Shown one piece after another: positions 23,549 through 41,100 of a stretch of 50,094 bases of DNA. The notes under the pieces are model-generated. The model saw only the letters and a program-made list of their open reading frames with translations. It was not told the DNA's origin and did not search any database. The number at the start of each line of letters is the position of its first letter. Position 1 is the first letter of the stretch. Source of the DNA: Thermoplasmatota archaeon (GTDB taxonomy: Archaea; Thermoplasmatota; Penumbrarchaeia; Penumbrarchaeales; Penumbrarchaeaceae); assembly GCA_016928095.1 (NCBI GenBank), contig JAFGLL010000116.1:1-50094 (forward strand), written 5' to 3'. The translations under genes and the position numbers were made by a program.

Positions 23549-23908
23549 TCAGGACAGGGCCCGGGTTACCGCTTCGCGGATCGTATTGATATCGGCGGGC
23601 TTCTCCAGGAAGTTCGTGATACCGAGACCGTTGACGGTCTCTTTCACGGATTCATCTGCGGTCAGAAAAAGTATCTTCTGAACGGGATTATTCTCGAGAA
23701 CGGCCTTTGCCAGCTCGGTCCCGGACATGATAGGCATCCTGTGATCGATTATCAGAAGGTCCGGTCCGGTCTGGAGACCCAGATATGTCTGAAGGGCCAT
23801 TTCACCATTGAGGGACTGGGCGATCACTCTATGCCCCATATCCTCAAGGATAATGGCCATCAACTGCTGTATCGTGGGTTCATCGTCAACTATCATGATG
23901 TCGGCCAT
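23549..23908 (-). CDS. CheY-like single-domain response regulator
   Basis: A receiver domain with no output domain (119 aa). The acidic pocket is D8-D9, the phospho-acceptor is D55 in LLIIDHRMP, followed by T83 and K103-P104, so all key residues are present. Such proteins are phosphorylated by histidine kinases and act through protein contacts. No kinase lies nearby. It has its own TATA box (23960-23968) and a GGGTGGT ribosome-binding site, between the end of atpA and the winged-helix pair. Confidence 0.93.
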   Translation of the reverse strand: MADIMIVDDEPTIQQLMAIILEDMGHRVIAQSLNGEMALQTYLGLQTGPDLLIIDHRMPIMSGTELAKAVLENNPVQKILFLTADESVKETVNGLGITNFLEKPADINTIREAVTRALS

Positions 23909-24000: not shown

Positions 24001-25773
24001 TCACAGGGAGAGTAGTTCCTTCGAGATCTCCTCCTTGATCGGTCTCACCCTGTCCCTGAAGCTCTCGTTTTGCATCTTTGCCATCCTGGATATGGTAATG
24101 CGGCATTTCGCATTCCTGATGGTATCCACGGAGATGCCCCTGGATACGGCCTTCTGCGCCATATCGTCGAACAGAAGGATCGCCCTCAACATCTCCACCT
24201 GTTTGTACTCCGGGCAGAACGAATCCACATCATGGAATGCATTCTGCTGGAGGAAGTCCTCCCTCAGCATCCTGGTGGTCTCCAGTGTGACCTGCTGTGA
24301 TGGAGGCAACGCGTCTGGACCCACCAGTTGGATGATCTCCTGGAGCTCGGCCTCCTGCTGCAATAAGGCCATCGCCCTGTTCCGAAGTTCCAGCCAATCC
24401 TCCGATATGTTCGATTTCCACCATCCTTCTACCTTGCCAAGGTACAGGGAGTAGGATTTGAGCCAGTTGATCGATGGGAAATGTCTCTTGTCCGCGAGGT
24501 TCGAATCCAGTGCCCAGAAGACCTTCACGATCCTCAGGGTGTTCTGCGTGACCGGTTCTGAGAAGTCACCTCCAGGAGGTGAGACCGCTCCGATGACCGA
24601 TATCGAACCACTCCTCGCAGTGCTTGCCATACATTCCACTGACCCGGACCTCTCGTAGAAGTTCGCCAATCTGCTGGAAAGGTAGGCGGGATATCCTTCC
24701 TCCCCGGGCATCTCCTCGAGTCGCCCCGATATCTCCCTCAGGGCTTCGGCCCACCTTGAGGTCGAATCGGCCATCAATGCCACATCATAACCCATATCCC
24801 TGTAGTATTCGGCTATGGTTATCCCGGTATAAACGGACGCTTCCCTGGCTGCAACGGGCATGTTCGATGTATTGGCGATCAACACGGTCCTCGCCATCAA
24901 CGGCTCCTTCGTCCTCGGGTCCTCCAGTTTTGGAAACTCCCTCAGAACGTCCGTCATCTCGTTACCCCTCTCCCCGCACCCGATGTACACAATAACATCA
25001 GCATCGCTCCACTTTGCCAGCTGATGCTGGGTAACGGTCTTGCCGGTACCGAAACCTCCAGGGATCGCGGCCGTTCCGCCCTTGGCTATAGGAAAGAACG
25101 TATCCAGGATCCTCTGACCCGTGATCAATGGGGTATCCGGGTCCCTCTTGCGTTTGAAAGGACGGGAGATCCTGACGGGCCATCTATGCACCATGCTCAA
25201 TTCGAGGTCGCCCATCGAAGTAGCCAGAGTACATATGTTCTGGTCCACCCTGTAGTGACCAGATGTGGCTACCTTCAGGACCACGCCCTCGGTCTCAGGG
25301 GGAACCATTATTATGTGCTTGACCGTCGGTGTTTCCTGGACACGTCCTATCTCATCTCCGGCCATCAACCGATCCCCCTCCTTGACGGATGGATCGAACT
25401 TCCATTCACGTTCATGATCGATGGGAGTGACGGATACACCTCTGCTTATGAAATCCCCTGTCCTATCCCTTATCGATGCAAGAGGGCGTTGTATGCCGTC
25501 ATATATCATCGACATGAGGCCCGGACCAAGCTCGACCGAGAGCGGTTCCCCGGTCATTTCGACTACCTCTCCCGGAGAGATACCGGAGGTCTCCTCGTAT
25601 ACCTGAATGGTGGCCATGTCGGAATCCAGCTCGATTATCTCTCCTATCAATCTCTCGGATCCGACAGTAACGACATCGTACATCTTCGCTCCGCTCATGC
25701 CACTAGCTTTCACTACCGGACCGGCGATCATCTCTATGATGCCGGCAGACCTTTTATCCGTATCAACGGTCAT
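24001..25773 (-). CDS. atpA: A-type ATP synthase subunit A (catalytic)
   Basis: Catalytic subunit of the A1 head (590 aa). The P-loop is GGFGTGKT (239-246), where archaeal homologues usually have GPFGSGKT, followed by [20 protein letters not shown] and [20 protein letters not shown]. The long A-type non-homologous region (about residues 100-190) is present. An ATG at 25773 is chosen over the in-frame TTG 25797 and ATG 25791, because an AAGGAGG at 25782-25788 sits 8 nt before it. It is the last gene of the H-I-K-E-C-F-A operon; B and D, which normally follow, are absent here, and B lies at 35820 on the other strand. Confidence 0.97.
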
Positions 25774-25781
25774 TCGACAGA

Positions 25782-25788
25782 CCTCCTT
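25782..25788 (-). promoter_or_regulatory. Ribosome-binding site that fixes the atpA start
   Basis: AAGGAGG on the minus strand, 8 nt before the ATG at 25773. It lies inside the longer reading frame that starts at 25797, so it argues for the shorter protein. Confidence 0.65.
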
Positions 25789-25809
25789 CATGATCAAATA
25801 AAGAACCTT

Positions 25810-26142
25810 TCATATCTGCTCTTCCTTCCTGTCAGGGTCCATTCCAACAGCTCTTTTTATCAGGTCCCTGGCCCTTTTATCCTCGTTCGTCCCCGGTATC
25901 ATCACCGTCACCGGAAGCATGATACCCATGACCCTTTTCTCGAAGAGCCTGTCACTGAGGGCTTCACCACAATCCCGGGAGAGTATCATCACTCCGTGAT
26001 CACCCTTTATCATACGTGCATACCATTCCTTCAGGAGATCCACTTCCATCCCCTTTTCCCATATCAGGACCTCGGTCACACCTGCCAGGTTGAGACCGAG
26101 GGCGATGTCCTCATCCACTGCTGCACAGACCCCAGACCCCAT
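25810..26142 (-). CDS. atpF: A-type ATP synthase subunit F
   Basis: Central-stalk subunit F (110 aa), which sits in the rotor with subunit D. The family pattern is present: an N-terminal strand, NLAGVTEVLIWEKG, a middle GVMILSRDCGEALSDRL, and a C-terminal PVTVMIPG followed by the helix RDLIKRAVGM. Its ATG shares bases with the stop of the C-subunit gene (TGATG), so translation is coupled. The DEDIALGLNLAGV segment keeps the typical acidic start but lacks the usual initial KIAVIGD strand, which is shortened to GSGVCAAV. Confidence 0.9.
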   Translation of the reverse strand: MGSGVCAAVDEDIALGLNLAGVTEVLIWEKGMEVDLLKEWYARMIKGDHGVMILSRDCGEALSDRLFEKRVMGIMLPVTVMIPGTNEDKRARDLIKRAVGMDPDRKEEQI

Positions 26143-27239
26143 CAGACCCCTCCCTGATATACCAAAGATGCCCTGGTCTTTTCAACCTCCCAGCCTGCGA
26201 AAGATGCCTGGACCAGTGTCCTAATGTTCTTCATCTCCATCTCCTTCCCCACCATGTATCTTATCGTGGGTCCTATGTTCATACCGAAGGAATAGGATAT
26301 GGAAATAGACGCATCGAGCAGCATCTGGTCCAGGGCTATCTCGAGCCCTGTTGGACCTCTCTCGACCGCATCCTTGAAGAACCTTTCCAGATGGGTTCCG
26401 TTCAGGACCGATATCGATTCTTTTAGGTTCGAGGATTCGGACATCTGCTCGAGAACGGGTACACCTATCGTCCCACCTCTGGTGTAAAGATACGGCATCA
26501 CCTGCTCCCTTGTCCACCCGTTCATCTTGGACCTGATCAGAAGCTGGATATTGTACCGGTCCGCCAGGATATGAGAGAAGGATCTGGTGCCCCTCCTGCA
26601 GGATATCGGAACACCATCCAGATCGAAGATGGCATCCAGAACATACCGGTCCAGGACCGAATCGATCTCCTCCAGTCCTGCCTCCGACTCCTTGACAAGC
26701 GGTGCTATCGCCTTGTTGACACCGTGTCCCTCAAGGTACTCGACCGCCTGGGCCAGACCTGTTGACCCGAGGAACTGTGCCTCGAGGTCCGGGTCCAGAT
26801 ATCCAACGGGGTACAATGGTTCTGACCTCTTGCCGACCAATCTGAGGAGGCGCTTCAACTCCTCCATCTCCCAGAAACCGATGTAAGCCTTTACAAGGGG
26901 TGTAACTGCTTTAGGTGATCCAGTATAAAGCTGATCAAGGGATGCGTGGAACCTTGCCATGATCCTTCTATCCGCTTCCCTGAAGGTGCTCGCACCCTCA
27001 TCGGATGCAAGGTCACCTTGAAGGCTCTTTATCAAAGAAGATGGATCTGACATACCCAACAGCGGAGTGAGCTCATCTCTTGTCACGTAAGGGTTCCCTA
27101 TCGTGGAAAGCCTTGCATTATGGTAGGCGAACTGACCCATCAGGACCATCTTTCTGATCCCGAATATCAGAACGGCTCCAAGTAGTGCTGCGCCCAAGCC
27201 CAAGGCCGCGATAACAGGAAGCGTCAGCTGTATTACCAA
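26142..27239 (-). CDS. atpC: A-type ATP synthase subunit C with extra N-terminal membrane helix
   Basis: Subunit C (365 aa) couples the rotor ring to the central stalk and is normally a soluble, all-helical protein. From about residue 35 the family pattern begins (GQFAYHNARLSTIGNPYVTR) and continues to GWEVEKTRASLVYQGGV. Before it stands a clear hydrophobic helix (about 6-28, LPVIAALGLGAALLGAVLIF) followed by the basic turn IRK, as in a signal anchor. The start is a TTG at 27239 with AGGTGAG six nt upstream, overlapping the atpE stop; the only other good start, an ATG at 27149, would remove the helix but leave a 100-bp gap in a tight operon and has a weak ribosome-binding site. I therefore favour a membrane-tethered C subunit. 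Confidence 0.9.
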   Translation of the reverse strand: MVIQLTLPVIAALGLGAALLGAVLIFGIRKMVLMGQFAYHNARLSTIGNPYVTRDELTPLLGMSDPSSLIKSLQGDLASDEGASTFREADRRIMARFHASLDQLYTGSPKAVTPLVKAYIGFWEMEELKRLLRLVGKRSEPLYPVGYLDPDLEAQFLGSTGLAQAVEYLEGHGVNKAIAPLVKESEAGLEEIDSVLDRYVLDAIFDLDGVPISCRRGTRSFSHILADRYNIQLLIRSKMNGWTREQVMPYLYTRGGTIGVPVLEQMSESSNLKESISVLNGTHLERFFKDAVERGPTGLEIALDQMLLDASISISYSFGMNIGPTIRYMVGKEMEMKNIRTLVQASFAGWEVEKTRASLVYQGGV

Positions 27240-27249
27240 TCCATCTCAC

Positions 27250-27861
27250 CTACATGTTCTGGAACAGGTGTTCCGCAATTGTCTCCCTTATCCGCTCCTC
27301 GTTACGGTCCATAAGCCCCTGGAAGGTCATGTCGACCACCATGCTGCCTTTCCTGTCTGCGGCTATGAACCCGCCAAGCAGTTCCTTCCCCTTGAACCTT
27401 GAAAATGGTTCTCGGTCCATCAGGTGTCCTTCAAGGACCCTCACCATGGTGCGCTCATTGGATAGGACCTTCAGGTCCCTATCCCCAACTGCGTATACCA
27501 CGGCATCATCACCGAGCATCCCCAGTGTCCGGGATAGCATAAGATGAAGATATGAACCTAGCTCATCGTCCGATAGGTGCTTGATCCTTTCTCTGACGGC
27601 CGACATGGCATCCCATATGAGTTCTTCCTTGGCGGACAGCAGGGCCTCTCTGGCCTTTCTCTTACCATCCGACAGGGATACGTTCATGGTCTGTTCTATC
27701 TCCTTTGTGAGCCTGCTTTCCATCTCGGAGATCTCGGCATCCACCTTCTTGCGGGACCCTACCCTGATCCTTTCAGCTTCCGATCGGGCCTCCGTGAGTA
27801 TCCTCTGCTTCTCCACTTCAGCCTCCTCGATGATCCTTCCGATCATATCCTCAATGGCCAT
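27250..27861 (-). CDS. atpE: A-type ATP synthase subunit E (peripheral stalk)
   Basis: Peripheral-stalk subunit E (203 aa), which pairs with H to hold the A1 head still. The N-terminal half is a long charged coiled coil (about 1-95, starting MAIEDMIGRIIEEAEVEKQR); the C-terminal half is globular, with ELLGGFIAADRKGSMVVDMT, the conserved GG-near-C-terminus pattern, and a final RIRETIAEHLF. The length is usual for the family. It lies 14 bp after the K gene and 10 bp before the C gene. Confidence 0.93.
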   Translation of the reverse strand: MAIEDMIGRIIEEAEVEKQRILTEARSEAERIRVGSRKKVDAEISEMESRLTKEIEQTMNVSLSDGKRKAREALLSAKEELIWDAMSAVRERIKHLSDDELGSYLHLMLSRTLGMLGDDAVVYAVGDRDLKVLSNERTMVRVLEGHLMDREPFSRFKGKELLGGFIAADRKGSMVVDMTFQGLMDRNEERIRETIAEHLFQNM

Positions 27862-27875
27862 TCATTACCACCCTT

Positions 27876-28619
27876 TCACCCGAGCATTCCGGAAGCTATG
27901 AGCAGGAATATGGCCACCAGGAAACCGAATATGGCCATCGTTTCGGACATCACAGTGAAGATGACACCCTGACCGAAGACCTTGTTGTTCCTCCCGAAGG
28001 CGGCTGCAGCAGCCGATGCGGTCATCCCCTGAGGGATGGCAGAAACACTGGAGAATGCGATCACTAGCCCGATAGCGAGTGCTCCCCACCCGACATACGG
28101 ACTCTTCAGGATAGCGAATTCCGGCCCACCGGTCAAGCCGGTGAAGTTCAGGACCAGAATGGCGATCAGAAGACCGTATATACCCTGGGTCATCGGTAGT
28201 GCCTGGTATACTATCAGCCTTCCGAACTTATCGGGACGCTCGGCTGCGACACCGGTCGCTCCCGCTCCGGCGATACCTATACCGATCGACGATGTGATGG
28301 CCGCTATTCCCATTGCCAGGGCGACACCGATGAAAACTAGCATCCTGTTATCGTGGACCACCCTGGAATCCTCCATATTCTGCGGGTCGGTATATCCAAG
28401 GTACTCTTCGATGTTCGTCATCCCGTCATCATCTAGGTCCAGAGTAGCGTCGTTCGTCACATTGTCGAGACCGTTGGCCGCTTCCCAATCGTCGTCCATC
28501 CCATCATGGTCCTGGTCGACCAGTGGCGTCCTTTCTGCAGATACCGCTACCGTGCAGGTCAAAATAGCACACATTCCCAAAACAAGCAGGCCTACCACGA
28601 AAAGTGGTTTTCTTTTCAT
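27876..28619 (-). CDS. atpK: A-type ATP synthase rotor subunit K fused to calcium-type loop domain
   Basis: Membrane rotor subunit (247 aa; four-helix K/c subunits are usually about 150-160 aa). Seen: signal peptide or first helix (about 5-28); an outside segment with two loops, DQDHDGMDDDWE (35-46) and DLDDDGMTNIEE (61-72), then GYTDPQ, the DxDxDGxxDxxE pattern of thrombospondin type 3/EF-hand-like repeats; then two hairpins (four helices, about 93-245). Hairpin 1 has LPMTQG (L141, T144, Q145), helix 3 has Q197, helix 4 has the ion-binding E226. This matches the Na+ ligand pattern of Enterococcus NtpK (L61, T64, Q65, Q110, E139). The start ATG has a GGAGGA site. The whole frame is continuous, so this is a fusion and not two genes. 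Confidence 0.92.
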   Translation of the reverse strand: MKRKPLFVVGLLVLGMCAILTCTVAVSAERTPLVDQDHDGMDDDWEAANGLDNVTNDATLDLDDDGMTNIEEYLGYTDPQNMEDSRVVHDNRMLVFIGVALAMGIAAITSSIGIGIAGAGATGVAAERPDKFGRLIVYQALPMTQGIYGLLIAILVLNFTGLTGGPEFAILKSPYVGWGALAIGLVIAFSSVSAIPQGMTASAAAAAFGRNNKVFGQGVIFTVMSETMAIFGFLVAIFLLIASGMLG

Positions 28620-28677
28620 TGACCATTCCTCCGTATTGTTGGTTCAGATAATTTGATCGAGACATGATCCTTTTTGG

Positions 28678-30711
28678 TCATCCTGTTCCACCCCCGACAC
28701 CGGCATCGTCACCGCTCATTGTATATTCTCGTTCTCTCCCGAACGGGTCAAATAGCTCTCCGCCCCCCTCAAAGAACCTCGAGAAGAACTCCACGAACTG
28801 GAGTCTGACCGAATGTACAGCTGCACCAAGGGTCTGAAGCAGCAGGTTGAACACATGCAGGAATATGAGTAGTATGGCCACGACAGGGATCATCGCTGCA
28901 TGGAGATCAACGAGCATCTCTCCCACTATGTTGAAGGCCATCGCCAGTCCGAACGTGGACAGGCCAAGGGCAAGTATCCTGGTGTATGATATCCAGTCCC
29001 CCAGCAGACCCTCGATATTGAACAGGAACATGGCCCCCACCTCGAAGAAGAGAAGACCGGCACCCGAAATGAAGGCGGCTGCACCGATGATCGTGAGGAC
29101 GGTATCCAGTTCCCACCATCCCAGAAGTATTGCACCGATGAATATCACTGCACCGGCCTGGACAAGTACCCAGGAAACGGTTCCTTTCACGAACCCCCAG
29201 ACCTCCCTCTTCTTCAAACGGTCCGCTCCCAGAAGAATGAACCCCAGGTTCAGCTGGGCAAGTCCCAACCATAGCGAGACCTGAAAAAGGAGCATCGGGT
29301 CCTTGAGCGTGTTGTAGGGTAGCTTGATCCCGAATATCGTGAGGGTGAACAACGGTTCCAATGGGTCGCCATAGAACAATCTAGGTACAAGGTCCCCGAA
29401 GAAGGACCCCATCCACAGACCGGCAGCGATCGCCGAGATACCCATCAATATGCCCAGAGCACCAATGTTCCTCAGGCTGTTGCTCTTCTTACCTTTCCGG
29501 AAGATGTAGAGCGAGGGGAGTAGGAGAAGCAGACCGTATCCCGCGTCCCCCAGCATAAGACCGAAGAATAGTATGAACGGTATGGATATCCACATGCTGG
29601 GATCGAGCTCATTGTACCTTGGTGTGGAGAATGTCAATGCAAGAGGTTCGAAGAGACGTGTGAACCTGTTGTTCCGAAGCTTCGTTGGTACGATGTTCTC
29701 GCTTACCTCATCCTCTGTTGGGTCCCTTTCCTCCATTTGATATCTGCCCTTGGTCATGTCATGCAGGAGGGAACTCAGCTCTCCCAGCCTGTCGGCTTCC
29801 ATGAAACCGGAGATCATTTTGGTGTAAGTGGTACCTTTCAGGGTGGAGGCTACATCGGCCTTCTCGATCTCAATATCCAATGCTTCCCTCAAGGCCATTG
29901 CCTGAGGGAGGAGTGCTTCTGCAAAGGATGCACCGGTCTCCCTGAGCGAGATCTCCTTTCTCTCGAGCTGTTCGTCCATCCTTTCGAGTTCTCCGATGAT
30001 CTGGAGAACGGGAAGTGTCATCATTTTTGTGGAACCGGCGCTCCTATCCAGGAAGTTCGCGAACCTCCGAATGTCCAGATTGATCTCCGAGAACAGGCGC
30101 CCTCTGATGATACTTTCGACCTCCATAGCGCTGCTGCGAGTGAATATGATCCTCACGGCATGGATACCTTCCTTCCTGTCAAGAAGTGATCCCTGGACCT
30201 CGGCATTTACCTTGGATAATGCCGTGGAAAGCTCCATGAAACGCCTGGTCGTCCCCACTTTCACCACTGTTCTGCCAAGCGAGGAGATCGCCAGAAGATC
30301 GATATCAAGACCGGTCAATGATGAGAACCTGTCCTTCAATTCAGATATGTAGCCCCTATCCTCCGCGATCCTGTCCAATTCCTTCCGGAGCGGCTGTACA
30401 TCGGTCTCGGCGCCTTGCAGAAAAGAGATCGACCTTTCCAGGACATCCACAGGAGCGATGAGGAACCTCTCGGGATCAGGGACCTGCAGTGAGGATAGAA
30501 GCCCCTTTTTTTCTTTCTCCAGTGGCTCCAGGAAATCCAGGAGCTTGTCCAATCTGCTCTTGACCTCTGTGACTTCCTTGTGTGAGGATAGCTCCATCTT
30601 CCCATCATAATGTATCTGAATGATCATTGAATCATAAAGTCTTTCCATTACCCTTTTGAGGTCTGACCTCATCAGATAGATCTCGACCCATTTCATCCGT
30701 TTTGGATACAA
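28678..30711 (-). CDS. atpI: A-type ATP synthase subunit I (a-subunit, ion channel)
   Basis: Stator membrane subunit (677 aa) that forms the ion half-channels with the K ring. Residues 1-365 are the cytoplasmic domain with coiled-coil segments, starting in the family style MYPKRMKWVEIYLM; from about 375 come 7-8 membrane helices, with FGLMLGDAGYGLLLLLPSLY near the first, and the conserved C-terminal helix with the essential arginine in GAAVHSVRLQFVEFFSRF. It ends in a Gly/Asp-rich tail. The start is a TTG: AAGGAGAGG (30719-30727) lies 7 nt before it, whereas the next ATG (30696) would be 22 nt away, and homologues also begin a few residues before the MKWV-type strand. Confidence 0.95.
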   Translation of the reverse strand: MYPKRMKWVEIYLMRSDLKRVMERLYDSMIIQIHYDGKMELSSHKEVTEVKSRLDKLLDFLEPLEKEKKGLLSSLQVPDPERFLIAPVDVLERSISFLQGAETDVQPLRKELDRIAEDRGYISELKDRFSSLTGLDIDLLAISSLGRTVVKVGTTRRFMELSTALSKVNAEVQGSLLDRKEGIHAVRIIFTRSSAMEVESIIRGRLFSEINLDIRRFANFLDRSAGSTKMMTLPVLQIIGELERMDEQLERKEISLRETGASFAEALLPQAMALREALDIEIEKADVASTLKGTTYTKMISGFMEADRLGELSSLLHDMTKGRYQMEERDPTEDEVSENIVPTKLRNNRFTRLFEPLALTFSTPRYNELDPSMWISIPFILFFGLMLGDAGYGLLLLLPSLYIFRKGKKSNSLRNIGALGILMGISAIAAGLWMGSFFGDLVPRLFYGDPLEPLFTLTIFGIKLPYNTLKDPMLLFQVSLWLGLAQLNLGFILLGADRLKKREVWGFVKGTVSWVLVQAGAVIFIGAILLGWWELDTVLTIIGAAAFISGAGLLFFEVGAMFLFNIEGLLGDWISYTRILALGLSTFGLAMAFNIVGEMLVDLHAAMIPVVAILLIFLHVFNLLLQTLGAAVHSVRLQFVEFFSRFFEGGGELFDPFGREREYTMSGDDAGVGGGTG

Positions 30712-30718
30712 AGAGAGA

Positions 30719-30727
30719 CCTCTCCTT
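30719..30727 (-). promoter_or_regulatory. Ribosome-binding site that fixes the atpI TTG start
   Basis: AAGGAGAGG on the minus strand, 7 nt before the TTG at 30711 and just after the stop of the H gene. Confidence 0.6.
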
Positions 30728-30730
30728 TTA

Positions 30731-31048
30731 TCACTGCTCCTCTAACAGCAGTTGCATTACATGATCTACAGCCAGAGGGATCTTCGACCTCAATCTATCA
30801 TCCAGTCCCCTGGCGACCTCTATACCATCGCTCTTTATCTTCTCCGCCTGCTCTTGTGCCTTTGTATTGGATGAACCCAGGACCCTGCTCTTTCGTAGAT
30901 TGAACTGGCTCAGCCTATCCTCCCTCTCCTTCCTTGCCCCTTTCTCCGCTTCCTCGATGATGTTATTTGCCTGTTCCTTGGCCTTCTCGACCAGGGTCTT
31001 TGCTTCCTTTTCAGCATCGACAAGCATATTAAGGGTGCGGTCTCCCAT
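30731..31048 (-). CDS. atpH: A-type ATP synthase subunit H (peripheral stalk)
   Basis: Subunit H (105 aa), a nearly all-helical coiled coil that pairs with subunit E in the peripheral stalk. The sequence is a continuous Lys/Glu/Ala heptad pattern (AEKEAKTLVEKAKEQANNII) with a short amphipathic C-terminal helix (IPLAVDHVMQLLLEEQ). The length is typical. It is the first gene of the operon, with GGTGGTAGG before its ATG, and is transcribed away from the 874-aa repeat-protein gene. Confidence 0.9.
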   Translation of the reverse strand: MGDRTLNMLVDAEKEAKTLVEKAKEQANNIIEEAEKGARKEREDRLSQFNLRKSRVLGSSNTKAQEQAEKIKSDGIEVARGLDDRLRSKIPLAVDHVMQLLLEEQ

Positions 31049-31307
31049 TTTCCTACCACCAGCAGTAAGTCCTTTCCACGAACGGAGGCTTAATGGATCG
31101 TATTACTTAATCCTTATCGTGTCTCATTTTGACAATGCAGACCGTTCCAGCCTGTTGACGATACGAGATGGGGAAAGGGATTATTAATGAATATCCTATT
31201 ATACCCTAACATAATGTCCTAAGATGTGGATGGAGGACCTTCGAAGATAATTTCAAGGAAACTTTTATAGCAAACATTAGGTTTGGGACAAAGGGGGAAA
31301 TATTGAT
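31049..31307. promoter_or_regulatory. Divergent promoter region: ATP synthase operon / repeat-protein gene
   Basis: A 259-bp AT-richer gap. For the plus-strand gene, ACTTTTATAG (31261-31270) is a TATA candidate about 42 bp before the TTG at 31308, and GGGGG (31293-31297) is its ribosome-binding site. For the operon, minus-strand candidates lie at about 31088-31097 (CCATTAAGCC) and 31103-31113 (GATTAAGTAA). ATTATTAATGAATATCCTAT at about 31181-31200 is a further AT-rich element. Confidence 0.5.
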
Positions 31308-33932
31308 TTGACAACCTCCGGCGAGGGTATCGACCCTATGGTTGAAAAATTGGAGATGGTCCTCAAGAAAGGGGACCTCATAATCTCCATGCTGGAAAAA
31401 CAGGGTATCGCAACAAATGAAATCAGGGTCCAGATGGATGCGGCAAAGACCTCCTTTTCCAGCGGTGAGATATCCAGAGCATATGTCATTGCCCAGCAAT
31501 GCGTGGGTGAACTCCTTCGATTGAAGGATATTGCGGGGCCTGTGCAAAAGGAACCTGCCGCAAAAAAGGGAAAAGGAGTGTTCGCTCTAATTCGAGACAA
31601 CACGGATGAGATGAAGAAGAAACTGGAAGAATGGAAGATCATCACCAGAGGTTGGCGTGAGAAGGGATACTCCTTCGAGGAAGAGGCCAGCCTCTTCAAC
31701 AGGGATTTCGAGGAGATAGAAAAAAGGTTCATATCCATTGGTGGTCAGATCGAAAAAGCAGAGATCATCAGGGGCCGCATGAACCGTATACGTGACGAGT
31801 TCAAACATATCGGTAGCAGCTACAAGAATAAGATCGATGAGGTGGAGGGGGCAACATTCCGCCTCGATAGACTGGACAACATCGAACGGCGTCTGACCTC
31901 TCTGGTGACCACATTGAAGTCCGTGGAAGGCAGGTTCACGACATTGAGGAACAGGATCAGCAGGTTTAAAAGGCAGGGACTCAACACCTCTTCATTGGAG
32001 GACATGCTGGAGAACGACGAGGACATGGACTACCTGGACAAGCAGTTCAATATATATGAGAGCAATATCGAGTTTCTCCTGAAGGAAAAGCAGAAATTGA
32101 AGGGATTGAGGGATGACCCGGTATCAATAAAGTATCAGAAGAAGTTCAAGGACATAGAAATGATGATCGACGACCCCTGGCAGCTTGACCCGGTGGTCGA
32201 AAGGATGCTTTCTCTGGAAAAGGACATAAAAAGTGAGAAGGAACACCAAAAGAGAAGGTCGGAGGAGAACAAGCGGAGGGAAGAGATCAAAAAGAATCTT
32301 GACAGATATAGAGATGAGGGGTTCAAGGTCGATGTTGTATCTCAATTGCTGGATGAGGACATAAATCTCCTTGAGGAGGAGTTCGACATCTTCATCAGAC
32401 AGACCGCAAGGTTGAGGTCGTTAAAGGAAAGACTGTTCAAACTGGATGCCACTGGCTTCGAGGAGGAAGTGGTACATATATCTCAGAAACTCTTCGATCC
32501 CACGAATATCGAAGCTATTGATCACGAGTTGAACCTCCTTAAAGACAGGATCATCAAACAGAAGACGCGCTTCCAGCGTATAGAGAACGCGATCAAAGAA
32601 TGGACGGCCATGGGTTTCAAGGTCTCCAAATTGGAAACCGCATTGAAGAACGATGTTGAAATGGCAGAGGAGATATACGAGGATTATTCCGTCAAGATAA
32701 AGGAGCTTCTGGAATTCGACTCAAAACTTCAGGGGATCAAGCATAAGGACCTCAACGAGATGGTACACAAGGTCAAGTTGAAGGTCAAGAATCCGGAACT
32801 CATAGATACTGTTCGCAAGGAAATGGATAACCTCATCAGGGTCAAGGACGATATGGAGGAACTACGTTCCAGCCGTAAGGAACTGAACGACCTGTTGAAG
32901 ATCTGGCGGGGCCAGGGTTATAAAATGGACAGTATAAACGATATGATGAGAAAAGAGGAAACCGTAGAGGGTCTTGAGAACATCATACTCAGCTATACCG
33001 GGGCTATCGCCTCACTGGAAATCATCAGGACCTCGATCGCCGCGGAGGAACGTGGGTGGTTCCCGACGGAGGAGAGGTATATCAGGGAGAACATGGACGA
33101 TCCGGAAAGGTCCAAAGAGGTCCTCCAAACCTTCAACAAGCTCAAGACCCAAAACAGGAAGGAGGAGAAGAGAAGAGGTGAGATCTCCAGGAAGCTCAAG
33201 GAGCTTACCCACCGCGGGATCGATATATCGAGGGTCGAACCGCTCCTGATAGGGGACAAGGAGACACTTGATAACGAGTATACGATCTTCAAGGAGAATG
33301 TCAGGGAACTGCTGATCCTCAAGGCCGATCTGCTGAAGGAAGCGAAGCTTCAGAAAGACCAGGGTAAGGAATTATTCGTCAAGAGCCTGACGGACCCATA
33401 CTCCCTGGGAACCTACAGACTTCAGATAAACGGGTCGGACCAGAAACCCGAAATCCGGGAAAGAACACCATCAAAAACCTCCCCCTCTCAGGATATCAAG
33501 GAACTCAATGAGCTGGCCAAGGCCGCCTACAAGGAGAACAGGCTCAAAGAGGCACTCCGTCTCTTCGAGATCGTCCAGTCAATGGACCCCTCCAACAAGG
33601 AGAGCCGTTTCTACATGAAGAAGGTCCTTCTGAAACAAAGGAGTTTAATAACTGAAGGAACCGATACAAGAACGGATACCCAAACCGTGGAACCGGAGGA
33701 CATCTCACTGAAAAAGGTGGAAGAAGCTCCGAAGGTGGAGGGACGGGGGGGTGACCCTAACTGCCTGTCATGCAGAGGCACCGGGAATTGCATATGGTGC
33801 GATGGAAGCGGAAAATGCTCCACCTGCGGAGGTTCCGGGAAATCCCTCGGCAATGTATGCAATTCCTGCAAAGGGACCGGTGAATGCAACGTCTGCAAGG
33901 GAACAGGTAAATGTAGTTGGTGCAATATCTGA
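31308..33932 (+). CDS. Repeat coiled-coil protein with TPR and six-CxxC zinc domain
   Basis: An unrecognised soluble protein of 874 aa with three parts. (1) Residues about 100-700: a charged helical region with a repeat of about 100 residues, whose marker glycines fall at 120, 224, 338, 436, 537 and 637. Half A reads roughly EW---GFKV--LE--L--D-E-LEE-F--Y---I--L; half B has a DP/NP turn (289, 397, 495, 598, 696) followed by ID-V--EM--L. (2) Residues about 728-775: one or two TPR-like helices (KEALRLFEIVQSMDPSNKES). (3) The C terminus (819-872): six CxxC pairs, most as CxxCxGTG/GSG, like the DnaJ zinc domain. The start is TTG with a GGGGG site 10 nt upstream; an ATG at 31338 is the alternative. 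It is divergent from the ATP synthase operon and 4 bp before a surface-protein gene. Confidence 0.75.
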   Translation: MTTSGEGIDPMVEKLEMVLKKGDLIISMLEKQGIATNEIRVQMDAAKTSFSSGEISRAYVIAQQCVGELLRLKDIAGPVQKEPAAKKGKGVFALIRDNTDEMKKKLEEWKIITRGWREKGYSFEEEASLFNRDFEEIEKRFISIGGQIEKAEIIRGRMNRIRDEFKHIGSSYKNKIDEVEGATFRLDRLDNIERRLTSLVTTLKSVEGRFTTLRNRISRFKRQGLNTSSLEDMLENDEDMDYLDKQFNIYESNIEFLLKEKQKLKGLRDDPVSIKYQKKFKDIEMMIDDPWQLDPVVERMLSLEKDIKSEKEHQKRRSEENKRREEIKKNLDRYRDEGFKVDVVSQLLDEDINLLEEEFDIFIRQTARLRSLKERLFKLDATGFEEEVVHISQKLFDPTNIEAIDHELNLLKDRIIKQKTRFQRIENAIKEWTAMGFKVSKLETALKNDVEMAEEIYEDYSVKIKELLEFDSKLQGIKHKDLNEMVHKVKLKVKNPELIDTVRKEMDNLIRVKDDMEELRSSRKELNDLLKIWRGQGYKMDSINDMMRKEETVEGLENIILSYTGAIASLEIIRTSIAAEERGWFPTEERYIRENMDDPERSKEVLQTFNKLKTQNRKEEKRRGEISRKLKELTHRGIDISRVEPLLIGDKETLDNEYTIFKENVRELLILKADLLKEAKLQKDQGKELFVKSLTDPYSLGTYRLQINGSDQKPEIRERTPSKTSPSQDIKELNELAKAAYKENRLKEALRLFEIVQSMDPSNKESRFYMKKVLLKQRSLITEGTDTRTDTQTVEPEDISLKKVEEAPKVEGRGGDPNCLSCRGTGNCIWCDGSGKCSTCGGSGKSLGNVCNSCKGTGECNVCKGTGKCSWCNI

Positions 33933-33936
33933 CGGT

Positions 33937-35787
33937 ATGGCCTTTAATACTTATCGAACGACCTTCATGTTCTTGATCCTGCAAGTATTGATACTCCTTG
34001 CCAATCCGGTATCCGCTCAATGCTGCACTCCCGCAGAAGGTAGCCCTTATACAGGTCCAATGGTCCCCTGGGATGGTGAGGATATAACCGGTAAAAATGT
34101 GGTCATTAACAGCACCCTGATCATCGATGGACAAATGAAGATCGTGAACTCCACGGTCATAATGGAGGGCGGGGGGATGGTCCTGAACTCATCTGGATCG
34201 CTGACCGTGGTCAACTCCGTGCTGACCTCGGGAGCTCCCGACCATGGTTTCTTTCTTGACCTTCGGGGCCAGGTCATCATGGACAACGTTACCCTGGACG
34301 GATGCATCGATGAGGAGAACTCTTATTTCGGCCTCTATCTGGAGGGCACCTCGATGCATGGATCGGGCCTGATAATGAAAGGATCAGGTATGATAAGACT
34401 CGAGGGGGGAGGTCTGTTCCTTGAAAGATCGGCGATCAACGGTATCATGTCCTACGGGGGCAACATGACCATCAAGGACTCCCTCGTGGACCAGTTCGGT
34501 GTGAACCATTATGGAGAGGGACAGATCGATATCCAGGATGTCAAGATCAGTTCCAGCATACCTTTCACCCAGACCGCGGGATTGTCCCTTGTGGATGGAC
34601 CCGGGGTATCCATCGATGGTCTTGTTGTCAATGGTTCGTTCAATGCCGGTCTATTCGTCCAGTCGGGATCATTATCTGTTGAAGATGCACTGATCGACCT
34701 TCCGGAAGGCCTGTTCGGTCTGAGCGCGTCGGCATCTACCATCGGGGAACTTACGAACATATCGATAAAAGGTCCAATGACAGGTGTCGAACTCGTTGAC
34801 TGTACTATGGAGGGGGACCTCACCTCGAGCATGTTGGATACCTCCTTCCTCGGTATCAACGTTCAGGGAATGGAACCCTTCTCGATAAAGGAGACGACCA
34901 TAATGGGTGCATCCTACGGTATCTCTTCCTCGGCACCTCTTTGGGTCAAGAACAGTACTTTCATCGACAACGAGGTTGGTATCCTGATAGAGGATGGTCC
35001 GATCATGGTCATAACCGGCTGCAGGTTCGAGAACTTCGGGCAATGGGCAGTGGAGGATGAGACCTGGACCGATCGATACTACATGGACAACGAGTTCTAT
35101 CCGTCAAATGAGAGCAAAGGCATCATTGCCTGGTGGGGATGGCAGGACATAGAGGTCACCGGTCCAGGCGGTATACCGGTGTCAGGTGCGGAGCTGGTCC
35201 TGGTTTCGTCCTTTGGCTCGAGGTCTATTGTCCGTGGAACGGAGGCGGGTGTCATATGGGGGTACAGCGGGCTTGACGGCAGGAAGGTGGATGTCAACTA
35301 TACTATCGAAGCACGATGGGGGACGGCCACTATCGAGATGGACCTGGTCCCAAGAGAGGGACGGACGATCCAGATATTACTCCCTCTTACTGACATCTAC
35401 CTGAGCAATATCGAGTACAGGAACGACAGGGCGGTGGTCACTTTAATGTCCAACGGTTCTTCGGCAAGGGAAGTAACGGTGGAGATATTCATAGATGGTA
35501 AGAGCTGGAACCATGAGACGGTCGAGATAGCATCTGATGATATCAGGACCGTGACCATAGCACTCCCGGAACTCGACCCCGGATCACATACCATCGAAGC
35601 AAAGGCCTCATCCAATTACGAATACAGCGGCATGGACGGTTACCTCCTTATGAACAATGCAAAGAGCACAGAGGTCATCATAGACAGGGAGAAGGATGAC
35701 GGAAAGGTTAATCTGGTCATTGCAGGATCGGCCTTGTCCATCATCGCAATAATGATAGGGATAGTACTTCTCAGGAAAGAGGACTAA
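33937..35787 (+). CDS. Beta-helix surface protein, C-terminal TM
   Basis: Predicted 616-aa exported protein. The longer open frame starts at 33751, inside the previous gene, but the first 62 codons there are just another frame of its Cys-rich end; the ATG at 33937 gives a clean signal peptide (1-27, TTFMFLILQVLILLANPVSA) and lies 4 bp after the previous stop. The mature part starts QCCTPAEGSPYTG and forms a parallel beta-helix (about 45-410) of short coils such as KNVVINSTLIIDGQMKIVNS. A CARDB-like domain follows (about 485-570: NIEYRNDRAVVTLMSNGSS), then a membrane helix (about 594-612) and a four-residue tail. It is in an operon with the repeat/zinc protein. Its role is probably surface binding; no catalytic site is seen. 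Confidence 0.8.
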   Translation: MAFNTYRTTFMFLILQVLILLANPVSAQCCTPAEGSPYTGPMVPWDGEDITGKNVVINSTLIIDGQMKIVNSTVIMEGGGMVLNSSGSLTVVNSVLTSGAPDHGFFLDLRGQVIMDNVTLDGCIDEENSYFGLYLEGTSMHGSGLIMKGSGMIRLEGGGLFLERSAINGIMSYGGNMTIKDSLVDQFGVNHYGEGQIDIQDVKISSSIPFTQTAGLSLVDGPGVSIDGLVVNGSFNAGLFVQSGSLSVEDALIDLPEGLFGLSASASTIGELTNISIKGPMTGVELVDCTMEGDLTSSMLDTSFLGINVQGMEPFSIKETTIMGASYGISSSAPLWVKNSTFIDNEVGILIEDGPIMVITGCRFENFGQWAVEDETWTDRYYMDNEFYPSNESKGIIAWWGWQDIEVTGPGGIPVSGAELVLVSSFGSRSIVRGTEAGVIWGYSGLDGRKVDVNYTIEARWGTATIEMDLVPREGRTIQILLPLTDIYLSNIEYRNDRAVVTLMSNGSSAREVTVEIFIDGKSWNHETVEIASDDIRTVTIALPELDPGSHTIEAKASSNYEYSGMDGYLLMNNAKSTEVIIDREKDDGKVNLVIAGSALSIIAIMIGIVLLRKED

Positions 35788-35819: not shown

Positions 35820-37214
35820 ATGCCTCGATCAGCGAACAAGGATATCGAATATTCAACGATCACCGAAGTCTCCGGACCTTTGATGGTCGTGGAGAAGGTA
35901 CAGGGGGTTTCATACGGAGAGGTCGTCAAGATCAGACCACCGGATGGCAAGATCAGGTTGGGACAGGTCCTTGAAGCGCACCTTGACAAGGCCATCGTTC
36001 AGGTGTTCGAAGGCACAAAGGGTATCGATACAAAGAACACATCCGTGAGGTTCACGGGAGAGACCATGAAGATAGCGGTCTCACCTGACATGCTGGGCAG
36101 GGTGTTCTCAGGAACGGGTAAGCCCATCGACGACGGGCCTCTCATCATTCCCGAGAAGCGCGTGGATATCAACGGTGAGCCCATAAACCCGACCTCAAGG
36201 GAGTACCCCAAAGAGTTCATACAGACAGGGATCTCCACCATCGACGGGATGAATACACTGGTCAGAGGGCAGAAGCTGCCGATCTTCTCGGCTTCCGGGC
36301 TCCCCCACAACGAACTTGCTGCCCAGATCGCACGTCAGGCCAAGGTGCTAGGCACAGGAGAGGATTTCGCGGTGATATTCTGTGCAATGGGGATAACATC
36401 GGAAGAGGCGAACTTCTTCATCAGGTCTTTTGAACGATCGGGAGCCCTGGAAAGGGCGGTCCTGTTCCTGAACCTCGCCGATGACCCTGCCATAGAGAGG
36501 ATCATCATCCCCAGGATGGCACTGACCACCGCCGAGTATCTTGCATTTGAGAAGGATATGCATATCCTGGTGATACTCACCGATATGACCAATTACTGCG
36601 AGGCCCTCAGGGAGATCGCCGCTGCAAGGGAAGAGGTTCCCGGAAGGAGGGGGTACCCGGGCTATATGTACACCGACCTCTCGCAGATATACGAGAGGGC
36701 AGGCAGGATAGAGGGAAAGAGCGGATCGATAACACAGATCCCCATACTGACCATGCCCGACGATGATATCACTCATCCGATCCCGGACCTAACTGGTTAC
36801 ATCACCGAGGGCCAAATAGTGCTTTCCAGGGACCTCCACCGTAAGGCTGTCAAACCCCCCATAAATCCACTTCCATGCCTTTCAAGGCTAATGAAACAGG
36901 GGATCGGAAAGGGCAGGACCAGGGAGGACCACGACCAGGTATCCAACCAGCTTTACGCTTCCTATGCGGAGGGTGTGAACCTCAGGGATCTTGTTGCGGT
37001 CGTGGGGGAGGAAGCCCTTACGGGAAGGGACAGGGCATACCTGAAGTTCGCTGATGTGTTCGAGAAGGATTACATATCCCAGGGAGATGAAGAGGACAGG
37101 TCCATCAAGGACACCCTTTCATTGGGGTGGAGGCTCCTGAAGATGATCCCCAGGGAAGAGCTCAAGAGGATCGACGAGCCCTACATCAAGAAATACTATC
37201 CTGCCACTGTCTGA
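35820..37214 (+). CDS. atpB: A-type ATP synthase subunit B
   Basis: Non-catalytic nucleotide-binding subunit of the A1 head (464 aa), which alternates with subunit A. Family features: [20 protein letters not shown] at the start, [30 protein letters not shown] in place of a Walker A loop, and [20 protein letters not shown] with [14 protein letters not shown]. The length is normal. The gene stands alone: it has its own leaderless promoter, and the usual atpD is not next to it; a DNA methyltransferase follows. The rest of the synthase is on the opposite strand 4.8-11.8 kb to the left, so equal supply of A and B must come from two transcripts. Confidence 0.97.
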
Positions 37215-37260: not shown

Positions 37261-38166
37261 ATGTGTGATGGCACGCCTTTGAAGGTGATCGATCCGGTCG
37301 ATACCGAGGGAATGCTCGATATCGGGAGTGTTTCCGATTCCGTTATCTTCGGGGACTGCAGGACGGTATTATCGCGGTTACCGGATTCCTCCGTTGATAT
37401 GGTGTTCATGGACCCACCGTATCATCTTCAGCTCCCCAAGAAGGACCTGAAGCGATGGAACCAGAACAATGTTGTCGTGGCGGTGAGGGACGAATGGGAC
37501 AGTTTCGGGTCCTTCGAGGAATACGACAGGTTCATAGAGGAGGTCCTTGTGGAGGTGAAAAGGGTCCTTAAGGAAAAGGGGGCCCTCTGGGTCATATCCA
37601 CATATCATTCCATCCACCGGATAGGCAAGATAATGCAGGACCTTGGCTTCTGGATCCTGAACGATGTCCACTGGGTCAAGACCAATCCCATGCCGAACTG
37701 GCTGGGGGTCCGCTTCACGAACGCCACGGAAACACTTCTTTGGGCCCTTAGGGACAAGGATGCAAAGGGGTACACATTCCATCGTGATCGGGCAAAGGAG
37801 TTCGGTATAGGCAAGGTTGGAGCCAACGTATGGGTGATCCCTCTATGTACCGGAGAGGAGAGATTGAAGAACAGCGAGGGAACACGTCTTCACTCGACCC
37901 AGAAACCCGCAGAGCTACTGCGGAGGGTGACCCTGACCTCCACAAACGAAGGGGACCTGATACTCGATCCCTTTGCCGGAACAGGCACGACCGGTCACGT
38001 TGCGAGAGAACTTGGAAGGAAGTTCATAATGATCGAGGCAAATCCCGATTATATCCCGGGCATGGCGGAGCGTTTCACCTTCGGGGCTCCGGGTCCAAAG
38101 GATAAAAGGATCAAGGAGCTCGAGGAGGCGATGGCGGAAGGGGAGGGGGAGGAGGGCGATCCGTGA
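37261..38166 (+). CDS. CcrM/HinfI-like adenine DNA methyltransferase, orphan
   Basis: Predicted beta-class adenine-N6 methyltransferase (301 aa). Motif IV is DMVFMDPPYHLQL near the N terminus, and motif I (SAM binding) is LDPFAGTGTTGHVARELG near the C terminus, which is the beta-class order. The middle segment (LGFWILNDVHWVKTNPMPNW, FTNATETLLWAL, PLCTGEERLKN, LHSTQKPAELLRRV) follows the CcrM and HinfI methylase pattern closely, so GANTC is a likely but unproven target. The extra C-terminal DNA-binding domain of CcrM is lacking. No restriction gene is nearby, so it looks like an orphan with a possible regulatory role. A GTG at 37240 is the alternative start. Its last 56 bp overlap the end of the convergent surface-protein gene. 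Confidence 0.88.
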   Translation: MCDGTPLKVIDPVDTEGMLDIGSVSDSVIFGDCRTVLSRLPDSSVDMVFMDPPYHLQLPKKDLKRWNQNNVVVAVRDEWDSFGSFEEYDRFIEEVLVEVKRVLKEKGALWVISTYHSIHRIGKIMQDLGFWILNDVHWVKTNPMPNWLGVRFTNATETLLWALRDKDAKGYTFHRDRAKEFGIGKVGANVWVIPLCTGEERLKNSEGTRLHSTQKPAELLRRVTLTSTNEGDLILDPFAGTGTTGHVARELGRKFIMIEANPDYIPGMAERFTFGAPGPKDKRIKELEEAMAEGEGEEGDP

Positions 38167-41100
38167 CCGGTCCCTGGGAAGGTGGCAGAGTGGGTGGTAT
38201 GTTCCGTTGATATCCTGCTGGAAGCTGTTGTGGAGGAAAAACAGGCATTGGTATACCGGAGCTTTCAGGAGGGTAACGTTTCTTCCTTACCAGAACTACG
38301 CCGACAACGACCACACCACCGATAAGGAGGAACGCTATTATCACCAACAATACGGTCAGCAGTATGTCCGAGCCCCCGTTCCCATCGGGTGCCACGATCT
38401 GATCCGTACCCTTAACCTCGATGGTCACCTCGGCATATGAGACCGCACCGTCATCATCCATGACCTCAAGGATGACCCTATACGACCCGGCTTTCGAGAA
38501 AGCATGAATAACCACGGTTCCCTCCGCATCATCGCCGTCGTCGAAATCCCAGAGGAAAAGGAGAGAGACCATATCTGAAGGATTGTCAGAACTGCCGTTG
38601 GCCGAGAAAGTGATCACGGACCCGACATCGACCGAATTGCTGGTAACTTCAATGACCGCCCTCGGAACCGGGTTACCGATCACCATGTCCTTTTTTATTT
38701 CGACCCTGTCATCCCCGTCATCGATGGTCATTTTCACCGTATACCTGCCCTTTCTCGAGTAGGTATGTAGCGCCTTGGGGCCAGTGACAGGCCCGCTGTC
38801 ATCATCGAAGTCCCAGGTGACCAGCAGGAATTCGAGATCATGTGGCGTATCCCACAGGTCCACCGCTTCGAAGGTTATCACCTCATCCTCATCATAGGAT
38901 GAGTTCTCGGTTAATATCCCTCCCCGTGGAAGCATGTTGAGGACATTGAGATACAGTTCTTCCTCATCACTTTCAAGGTCATCATCCACGACAGCGACGA
39001 TCAGATCATATCGGCCTTCTTGCGGGAGGGAGAACGTGAAAGTGCCGTTGCTGGACCTTATATTGTTATCGTTCGGGAACCTCAGCTCGTAAACCAGGTT
39101 CTCTCTATCCGACGAAGTATCCTTGCCTTTGACCCTCAGCTCCACTATCTCATCCTCGTAAACATCGAACAACGGGGATATCTCCTCTATCTGGGGGGCA
39201 ACATTCCTGACCTCGACCTTCAAGGAAAGGGATGCCGAGGACCCGTCGTCATCCCGGACAGTACAAGTGACATCATATACCCCGCTGAACTGGTACACAT
39301 ATCCGATATCGGGGGTCGATCTCCAACCGCTTTCGTTGCCGTTCCCGAAGTCCCAGTTGTATTCAAGCGAGTGCAGATCGGATTGAGTATCGAGACCTTC
39401 CACGATATCATCCAGGTCCAGGGCCGAATCCTCATCGATAAGGAGAAGGCCCGGATCATCATCCACCCAGTTCAGGGCAGGGGCTCTGTTGGTGATGTTG
39501 ACCCATCCCAGCAGGGTCCCCCCTCCGCCGTACTGGTCCCTCACCGACGCCTTCACGGTGTAGTTGCCCGTCCCGGTATATCTATGGATGCCTTCCGACA
39601 GGTCCGACCAGGTCTCCTGCTCGGTCCCATCCCCGAAATCCCATTTCATCTTCTTCTGACCGGTATCGGAGGGGGAATCGAACACAACAGGTGCAAAATA
39701 TATCAGGTCATCCTCGAAATGGACCGTATCATTTCCGTCCCCGGGCTCGACCCATCCCCAGGGGTCCACATTGAGGACATCCACGAATGCGCTCTTTGAG
39801 ACCTCATCGGTTCCGTCTATCACATCTATCCTGATGGTGTACCTTCCTGGGGCAGAGTATGAATGAGATGTTGATATATGACCCGACCCTTTGTTGCTGG
39901 CTGCATCACCCCAATCGATCTCCCAGCTGATGTTGACGAGGTCTGATGGTGTGTCAGCAACGATATCCTTCAGCACCACAATAGCATCCATTTCGACCAT
40001 GCGGTCAACGATGTCTATTGCGGGAGGTATGTTCTTAACTTCCACCACGATGGGATACAGGTCCCTGCCCAGATTCGAACCGTCCCTCACACGGCACCTC
40101 ACATGGAAGATCCCATCGTGATGGACAGGGATGGATATCCGGGGTTCCGTCCAGTCTGTGTTCACATCGAACAGATTGTCCGAATCCAGGTCCCATTGAT
40201 ATAAACTTATATAGGAATCCGTCGAGACCGCATCGATGGTGATAGTAACATTGGAATCCTCCTTAAGGGGGGATGAGACAGTATATCCTTGTATATCGGG
40301 ACCTTCCCCATCCTGCCTCTCTATCTCAATAATGGTATCTGCATACGAGGAAGTTTCCTGTATCAACCCGTCAGGCCATACGATATCAATGATCATAGGT
40401 CGAGCGCCGATGGATGGACCAAGTCCGAAATGAAGAGTTACGGCCTCCTGATGTGCATGACCCGTCCCTGCCCTCACCTCTCTTGTTATCATCACATTCT
40501 CATCATCAAGTTTATATCTCACGGTGACCCTTGCCCCCACCGCATCTGGATCAAGACCGTCCTGCTTAAGCTTGATCTCCAGCCAATGATCGCCCGATGA
40601 AAGCTGGTTCTGATACAATCTCAACCTGTAGCCCTGCCAGTTCGAACCGTCCCACCTGTCGCCCCCCCCGGTAACGAGGTCCAGGTCGCCGTCATTGTCG
40701 TAGTCTACCCACAAACAGGCGTACGTATTGGAGCCTTTGATCCCCAGCTTATCCGTAACATCCTCGAAGGTGGTTCCGTCAGGGATCGACGGGTCAGTGG
40801 AATGTCCTTTGTTGTGGTAGAGATGAGGAGTTGTGTAGGACAGGTCCCCGTAGACCTGGGGTATGTATATGTCCTCCCACCCGTCATTGTCATAGTCCCC
40901 GATCGCAACCCCGGAGAATGTCTGATCGCCTCGGTAGGTTCCCTGACCCCCGACAGGCCATCTCGGAATGCCGGAGGTGTTACGGTAATCCGTGAACCTG
41001 TAATATGGCGCCCCGTCATTGATGTAGAGATTGCCGTCGTCGCAGACGTACCCTCTAATATCATAGGTGCTCCCTATATAGCCAACATATTTGTGAACGA

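Follow-up and report, generated by a model that had tools for sequence, protein, structure and literature searches.

A protein of six ~100-residue helical repeats encoded beside atpB in a Thermoplasmatota archaeon and its possible role in ATP synthase assembly

Results

The P0001 gene lies between the two parts of a split atp cluster

The window, by which we mean the whole stretch of DNA analysed here (50,094 nucleotides), is a contig from a Thermoplasmatota genome of 2.8 Mb assembled into 124 contigs (GenBank assembly GCA_016928095.1, contig JAFGLL010000116.1). It holds the gene of P0001, a protein built of six helical repeats whose features are collected in Table 1. A Shine-Dalgarno-like purine-rich run (31293-31297) lies upstream of the start codon, and the GAAAC-n-TTTATAG element before the gene also occurs in two related genomes, G001 and G002, with TTTATA common to G000, G001 and G002. 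The ortholog in G001 keeps the TTG start and a similar leader as well. Bacterial promoter and terminator scans gave results at chance level.

Table 1 Features of the P0001 locus (positions in the window; residues are those of P0001)
Feature	Position	Strand	Basis
atpH-I-K-E-C-F-A divergent operon	24001..31048	-	
TTTTATA, putative archaeal TATA box of the P0001 gene	31263..31269	+	sequence read; 39 nt 5' of TTG
Gene of the six-repeat helical, predicted rod protein (P0001, 874 aa, TTG start)	31308..33932	+	ORF; orthologs
N-terminal three-helix region, residues 9-75	31332..31532	+	AF2 full-length model, pLDDT about 72-84
GKGV(F/Y)AL(I/F)R motif, residues 88-97, 5' of repeat 1	31569..31598	+	nearly all aligned orthologs, G008 included
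Repeat 1, residues 90-193 (G120)	31575..31886	+	per-repeat HMMs, shuffle test
Repeat 2, residues 194-307 (G224)	31887..32228	+	per-repeat HMMs, shuffle test
Repeat 3, residues 308-405 (G338)	32229..32522	+	per-repeat HMMs, shuffle test, AF2 pair model
Repeat 4, residues 406-506 (G436)	32523..32825	+	per-repeat HMMs, shuffle test, AF2 pair model
Repeat 5, residues 507-606 (G537)	32826..33125	+	per-repeat HMMs, shuffle test
Repeat 6, residues 607-707 (G637)	33126..33428	+	per-repeat HMMs, shuffle test
TPR-like helices, residues 726-781	33483..33650	+	PF07719 sub-threshold; three AF2 helices, pLDDT 75-85
Six-CxxC domain, residues 819-872	33762..33923	+	present in f1, absent in G008
Exported beta-helix surface protein, 616 aa, C-terminal TM by eye	33937..35787	+	PF13229 E=1.9e-11
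atpB, A-type ATP synthase subunit B	35820..37214	+	NF003235 above cut-off; directly behind surface gene

An earlier reading of this DNA, made from the sequence only, had correctly placed the gene divergent from the ATP synthase operon (at atpH) and 4 bp before a surface protein gene; it had missed atpB, which follows the surface gene. The atpB product scored 827.6 bits against TIGR01041, just under the cut-off of 844.65, and the gene of subunit D is located elsewhere in the genome. A stand-alone response-regulator-like receiver follows atpA (23549-23908, minus strand), as does its homolog in G005, and the gene at 38111-42046 (minus strand) encodes a surface protein of 1311 aa in which five PKD domains occur together with FG-GAP repeats and an UnbV/ASPIC domain. 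Within the divergent operon, atpK (27876-28619, minus strand) has a signal-like start and a DxDxDG...DxDxDG region before its two c-hairpins, and these are kept both in the family of the source genome (f1) and in G008, from the second family of the order. By eye the region is EF-hand- or thrombospondin type 3-like (L059-L066), and the atpK genes of G017 and G028 carry a stretch at the same place that appears PKD-like, also by eye (L083, L084). As read from the sequence, the extra region of atpK would place an exported domain on the rotor ring.

Linkage to atpH and atpB is conserved in two families

Full-length orthologs of P0001 share 44-68% identity with it in f1 and 21% in G008, all of them from draft assemblies of a single order with few members. 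The order of a divergent atpH followed by the P0001 gene, the beta-helix gene and atpB was found in G000, G003, G004, G005, G006 and G007, and in G001 and G002 as far as the contigs reach. The beta-helix gene is thus the conserved next gene in f1; in G008, atpB comes directly behind the P0001 gene and the beta-helix gene is missing. Linkage to atp genes is conserved in all orthologs with readable flanks, and the gap to the next gene is 4-20 bp where it can be measured, with overlapping stop-to-stop frames in G006 and G007. The sequence-only reading had asked whether homologues always lie beside atpH or beta-helix genes; they do so for atpH in both families and for the beta-helix gene in f1 only. 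Because atpH and atpB flank the gene in both families and the surface gene does so only in f1, the weight shifts from export to ATP synthase, and the link to atpB becomes the firmer one.

Outside the order, atpB stands directly behind atpA in most of the relatives checked, among them G010 and G011, the other two genomes of the same class. Some lineages have a long frame separating atpA from atpB, or atpA is outside the stretch read. Frames of ~1000 aa or longer between or overlapping the two genes were noticed in G016 and G027 (L088 10508-13768, minus strand; L089 5336-9355). Since the relatives outside the order mostly keep atpA-atpB, the P0001 gene and the displaced atpB downstream of it define the same clade, suggesting that atpB moved when the P0001 gene appeared.

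P0001 contains six repeats in a common register

The sequence-only reading had described six copies of a new repeat, marked by the six glycines listed in Table 1, which are spaced by 104, 114, 98, 101 and 100 residues. We aligned P0001 with eight orthologs, one of which is encoded by a gene broken across two contigs, cut the alignment at the glycines and built an HMM for each repeat. When these HMMs were matched to the other repeats of P0001, the register offset was 0 in nearly every case, and the cross-repeat scores summed to 435 bits. In 300 shuffles preserving which positions are hydrophobic, polar or Gly/Pro, the sum averaged 73 bits and peaked at 150; the self position was excluded in both cases. 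The reversed sequence gave a far lower score. Register and shuffles together confirm the six copies, and the same two results led us to reject a generic coiled coil as an explanation of P0001. Alignments between single repeats by hhalign reached probabilities of up to 97%, and the pairs 1-6 and 5-6 gave no in-register alignment; the signal is clearest for repeats 3, 4 and 6 and weakest for repeat 1. Each unit consists of a long helix ending in (W/Y)xxxG(F/Y)xV, a short helix, a second long helix with Fxx(F/Y)xxxIxxLxxL, and a (G)FExExxxI..L.DP segment. All full-length orthologs, including that of G008 with its 21% identity, keep six repeats. The repeat, its period and its conservation are well shown.

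No signal or membrane segment was seen by eye in P0001. Searches with the whole protein returned a sub-threshold TPR match only in Pfam, and no match in NCBIfam or among PDB sequences.

The repeat resembles spectrin in period and may differ from it in predicted helix order

An AF2 model of repeats 3-4, computed from eight rows taken from the window and two related loci, is an all-helical chain with a mean pLDDT of 88.7 and a pTM of 0.61, in which the helices are 42, 4, 27, 10, 37, 9, 26 and 14 residues long. The full-length model is poor (pLDDT 58.7, pTM 0.29) and weak in its middle. Foldseek found no neighbour at E<=0.001 in the PDB or among viral structures; its sub-threshold matches included Protein A repeats and the spectrin-like PRC1, at E 1.5-8.5. 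The rod or solenoid of defined length that the sequence-only reading had suggested is supported in its length by the constant six repeats, and a rod shape over all six seems plausible.

Spectrin-type repeats are three-helix bundles of about 106 residues that form tandem rods, each continuing from its helix C into helix A of the next, and the repeat of P0001 is like them in its similar period (98-114 residues here, and 98, 101-102 and 109 in relatives), its all-helical makeup, its frequent tryptophan, its tandem arrays and its whole-turn differences in spacing. A probable difference lies in the helix order: in the AF2 pair model the unit runs long (37-42), short (4-9), long (26-27) and medium (10-14), and successive units are separated by a Pro break. 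The spectrin family PF00435 gave no match up to E=1 in P0001, nor was it one of the 25 families that were listed for the 31 units described below.

The C-terminal end combines TPR-like helices with six CxxC motifs

Behind the repeats, the sequence-only reading had predicted TPR-like helices and a DnaJ-like zinc domain. The helices appear in the AF2 model, and their match to PF07719 (E=0.01, 16.4 bits) is below the cut-off of 27; P0001 resembles TPR proteins in one TPR-like hairpin before the CxxC end and differs from them in that the hairpin is a single copy scoring under the Pfam cut-off. As for the DnaJ-like domain, the six CxxC motifs are there, spanning C819 to C872 with linkers of 5-5-10-5-5 residues that read the same in both directions, and every f1 ortholog that has this end aligns with P0001 at all 12 cysteines. 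The likeness stops at the level of motifs: PF00684 (DnaJ_CXXCXGXG) gave no match in P0001 up to E=1, and the best PDB matches of the CxxC end, although DnaJ chains, had E values of 0.037 and 0.067.

In the cysteine-rich domain of DnaJ, CxxC motifs act in pairs and two zinc ions are bound. By analogy, motifs 1-6, 2-5 and 3-4 of P0001 could form three zinc sites by pairing across a hairpin, which would extend the DnaJ arrangement; the 12 kept cysteines are consistent with up to three such predicted sites. The DnaJ domain and that of BSD2/ZnJ2 share repeated CxxCxGxG motifs and a middle loop with this end, whereas P0001 has six motifs with 5-5-10-5-5 linkers instead of four, and no J domain (PF00226) was detected in it by Pfam. 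BSD2/ZnJ2 are examples of chloroplast proteins that carry CXXCXGXG motifs, lack a J domain and act as holding chaperones while a large complex is assembled (PMC5818400). We also noticed small proteins (L005 in G000:C66, and L026) that combine about a dozen CxxC motifs with a zinc ribbon and a TPR-like hairpin. Given such stand-alone TPR-CxxC proteins in the same and related genomes, the TPR-CxxC end is a movable module.

The repeat defines a family across Thermoplasmatota

With a model of the six repeats, arrays were detected in long proteins from related genomes, and a scan of GTDB contigs with the single P0001 sequence returned close relatives only. A profile of 31 units matched 71 of 293 Thermoplasmatota genomes (E<=1e-5), the search being confined to this one phylum. 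It had been foreseen that a profile might find only generic coiled coils with no ~100-residue period; this outcome was looked for and not obtained, as 105 of 115 spacings between successive units in 20 array proteins lie within 90-120 residues. Since the array proteins were gathered by the repeat itself, it is these periods, rather than the matches, that are independent evidence. Arrays reach 11 copies and their spacings recur exactly at 98, 101-102 and 109 residues; the steps of 3-4 and 11 residues amount to whole helical turns, which would fit packing between neighbouring helices.

Known families gave no counterpart. Pfam matches to the 31 units were scattered and single, the commonest family occurring in three of the 31, and a PDB profile search with these units returned short coiled-coil matches only (best E 0.002). 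No family for the repeat was found in Pfam, NCBIfam, PDB sequences or Foldseek, and literature searches of partial coverage returned no description of the repeat or of an atp-linked factor. The claim of a new ~100-residue helical repeat thus stands, with a strictly periodic phylum-wide profile search behind it, and the repeat is apparently an undescribed family spread through Thermoplasmatota.

Other members often join the repeat to an AAA+ domain of the DnaA type (PF00308, E 3e-37 to 6e-61), to zinc ribbons or to DUF835. In one member (L101 988-2433, minus strand), a single unit occurs in a membrane protein that by eye has four TM helices and that ends in a J domain (PF00226 E=1e-20). L039, L045, L048, L049, L050, L051 and L052 are archaeal proteins, 900-1400 aa long, that carry the unit eight times in tandem, and most have a C-terminal AAA+ domain of the bacterial DnaA type, or its start at a contig end, several with zinc ribbons. 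The AAA domain is missing from the eight-copy proteins of G000 and G001, including L039 (4307-7033), which is from the same genome as the P0001 gene. By profile, L048, L051, L045 and L039 share the repeat with P0001, in eight copies spaced by ~98 residues; unlike P0001, this type carries a C-terminal DnaA AAA domain (except L039) and zinc ribbons, and no adjoining atp genes were noticed. The N-terminal region of the DnaA-type proteins is one that we take to be PATAN-like. L041 and L043 each hold a pair of adjoining ORFs of great length (1238 and 1601 aa; 1361 and 1852 aa), and every one of these has 10-11 units, mainly 101 or 109 residues apart. No link to atp genes was seen for the other members of the repeat family.

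Discussion

We propose that P0001 is a soluble cytoplasmic protein in which an N-terminal helical domain, six stacked ~100-residue repeats, a TPR-like hairpin and, in f1, a CxxC hairpin predicted to bind zinc would form a rod. Its gene is probably co-transcribed with atpB, from a promoter facing the remaining atp operon. The repeats would set a fixed spacing between partners, and the end with the TPR-like helices and CxxC motifs might hold on to a client that is not yet folded or assembled, perhaps subunit B, until A3B3 has formed. Predicted solubility, the fixed number of repeats, a C terminus of a client-binding type and the location next to atpB together lead us to read P0001 as a scaffold or assembly factor dedicated to the A1Ao ATP synthase, with a probability of about 0.38. 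Zinc binding, co-transcription and contact with the enzyme are features that we infer, and it is gene order that ties the protein to ATP synthase. Several observations count against an assembly role: the same repeat is found in many proteins unconnected with ATP synthase, other archaea build the enzyme without P0001, the full-length AF2 model is poor, and the orthologs come from the drafts of one order and possibly reflect one rearrangement event. Moreover, G008 lacks the CxxC end, implying that this end is not essential to the shared function.

The breadth of the family is also what makes a more general role credible. P0001 might be a cytoskeletal or regulatory scaffold unrelated to ATP synthesis, fixed in place by one rearrangement that split the atp genes and sharing only its expression level with atpB. 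One ancestral event would explain the order-wide gene order, and the members with DnaA-type AAA+, zinc-ribbon, DUF835 and J domains show no atp link that we could see; however, the linkage persists between proteins only 21% identical and despite the loss or gain of the beta-helix gene. We regard this general role as doubtful yet a serious contender, and the assembly role is only slightly more likely than one ancient rearrangement that brought a member of the repeat family into the operon. The sequence-only reading had offered a scaffold or chaperone for assembly or export, of which the scaffold seems plausible. For export, the rod and its CxxC end would hold or target the beta-helix surface protein encoded downstream, in keeping with the 4-bp gap, the gene order conserved in f1, and the presence of both CxxC end and beta-helix gene in f1 and their joint absence from G008. 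That co-variation is a single contrast, however, and G008 retains the P0001 gene and atpB without the surface gene, so that we consider such a role unlikely.

P0001 could instead be a structural accessory subunit of the enzyme, such as an additional peripheral tether that links A1 to a partner in the membrane or at the surface. The gene of a predicted rod of fixed repeat number adjoins atpH, whose product belongs to the peripheral stalk, as well as atpB, and the extra, predicted exported N-terminal region of rotor subunit K indicates that the enzyme is already modified in this order. On the other side, no membrane anchor was seen in P0001, and we know of no A-type ATP synthase that carries such an extra rod part; a structural subunit is in our view the least probable of these readings. 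A wider proposal, speculative and itself not likely, is that the repeat is an undescribed, phylum-wide rod domain that would work like spectrin without belonging to the spectrin family, and that in this order the ATP synthase, whose rotor subunit would also bear an exported domain, took in the six-repeat copy as a fixed structural part or as an assembly scaffold.

If these results are right, a periodic repeat unseen by Pfam and NCBIfam, present in about a quarter of the sampled genomes, would fill an annotation gap that runs through the phylum. To our knowledge, no dedicated accessory or assembly protein of the archaeal A-type ATP synthase has been known before, and a rod tied by gene order to a relocated atpB would make P0001 a testable candidate for one.
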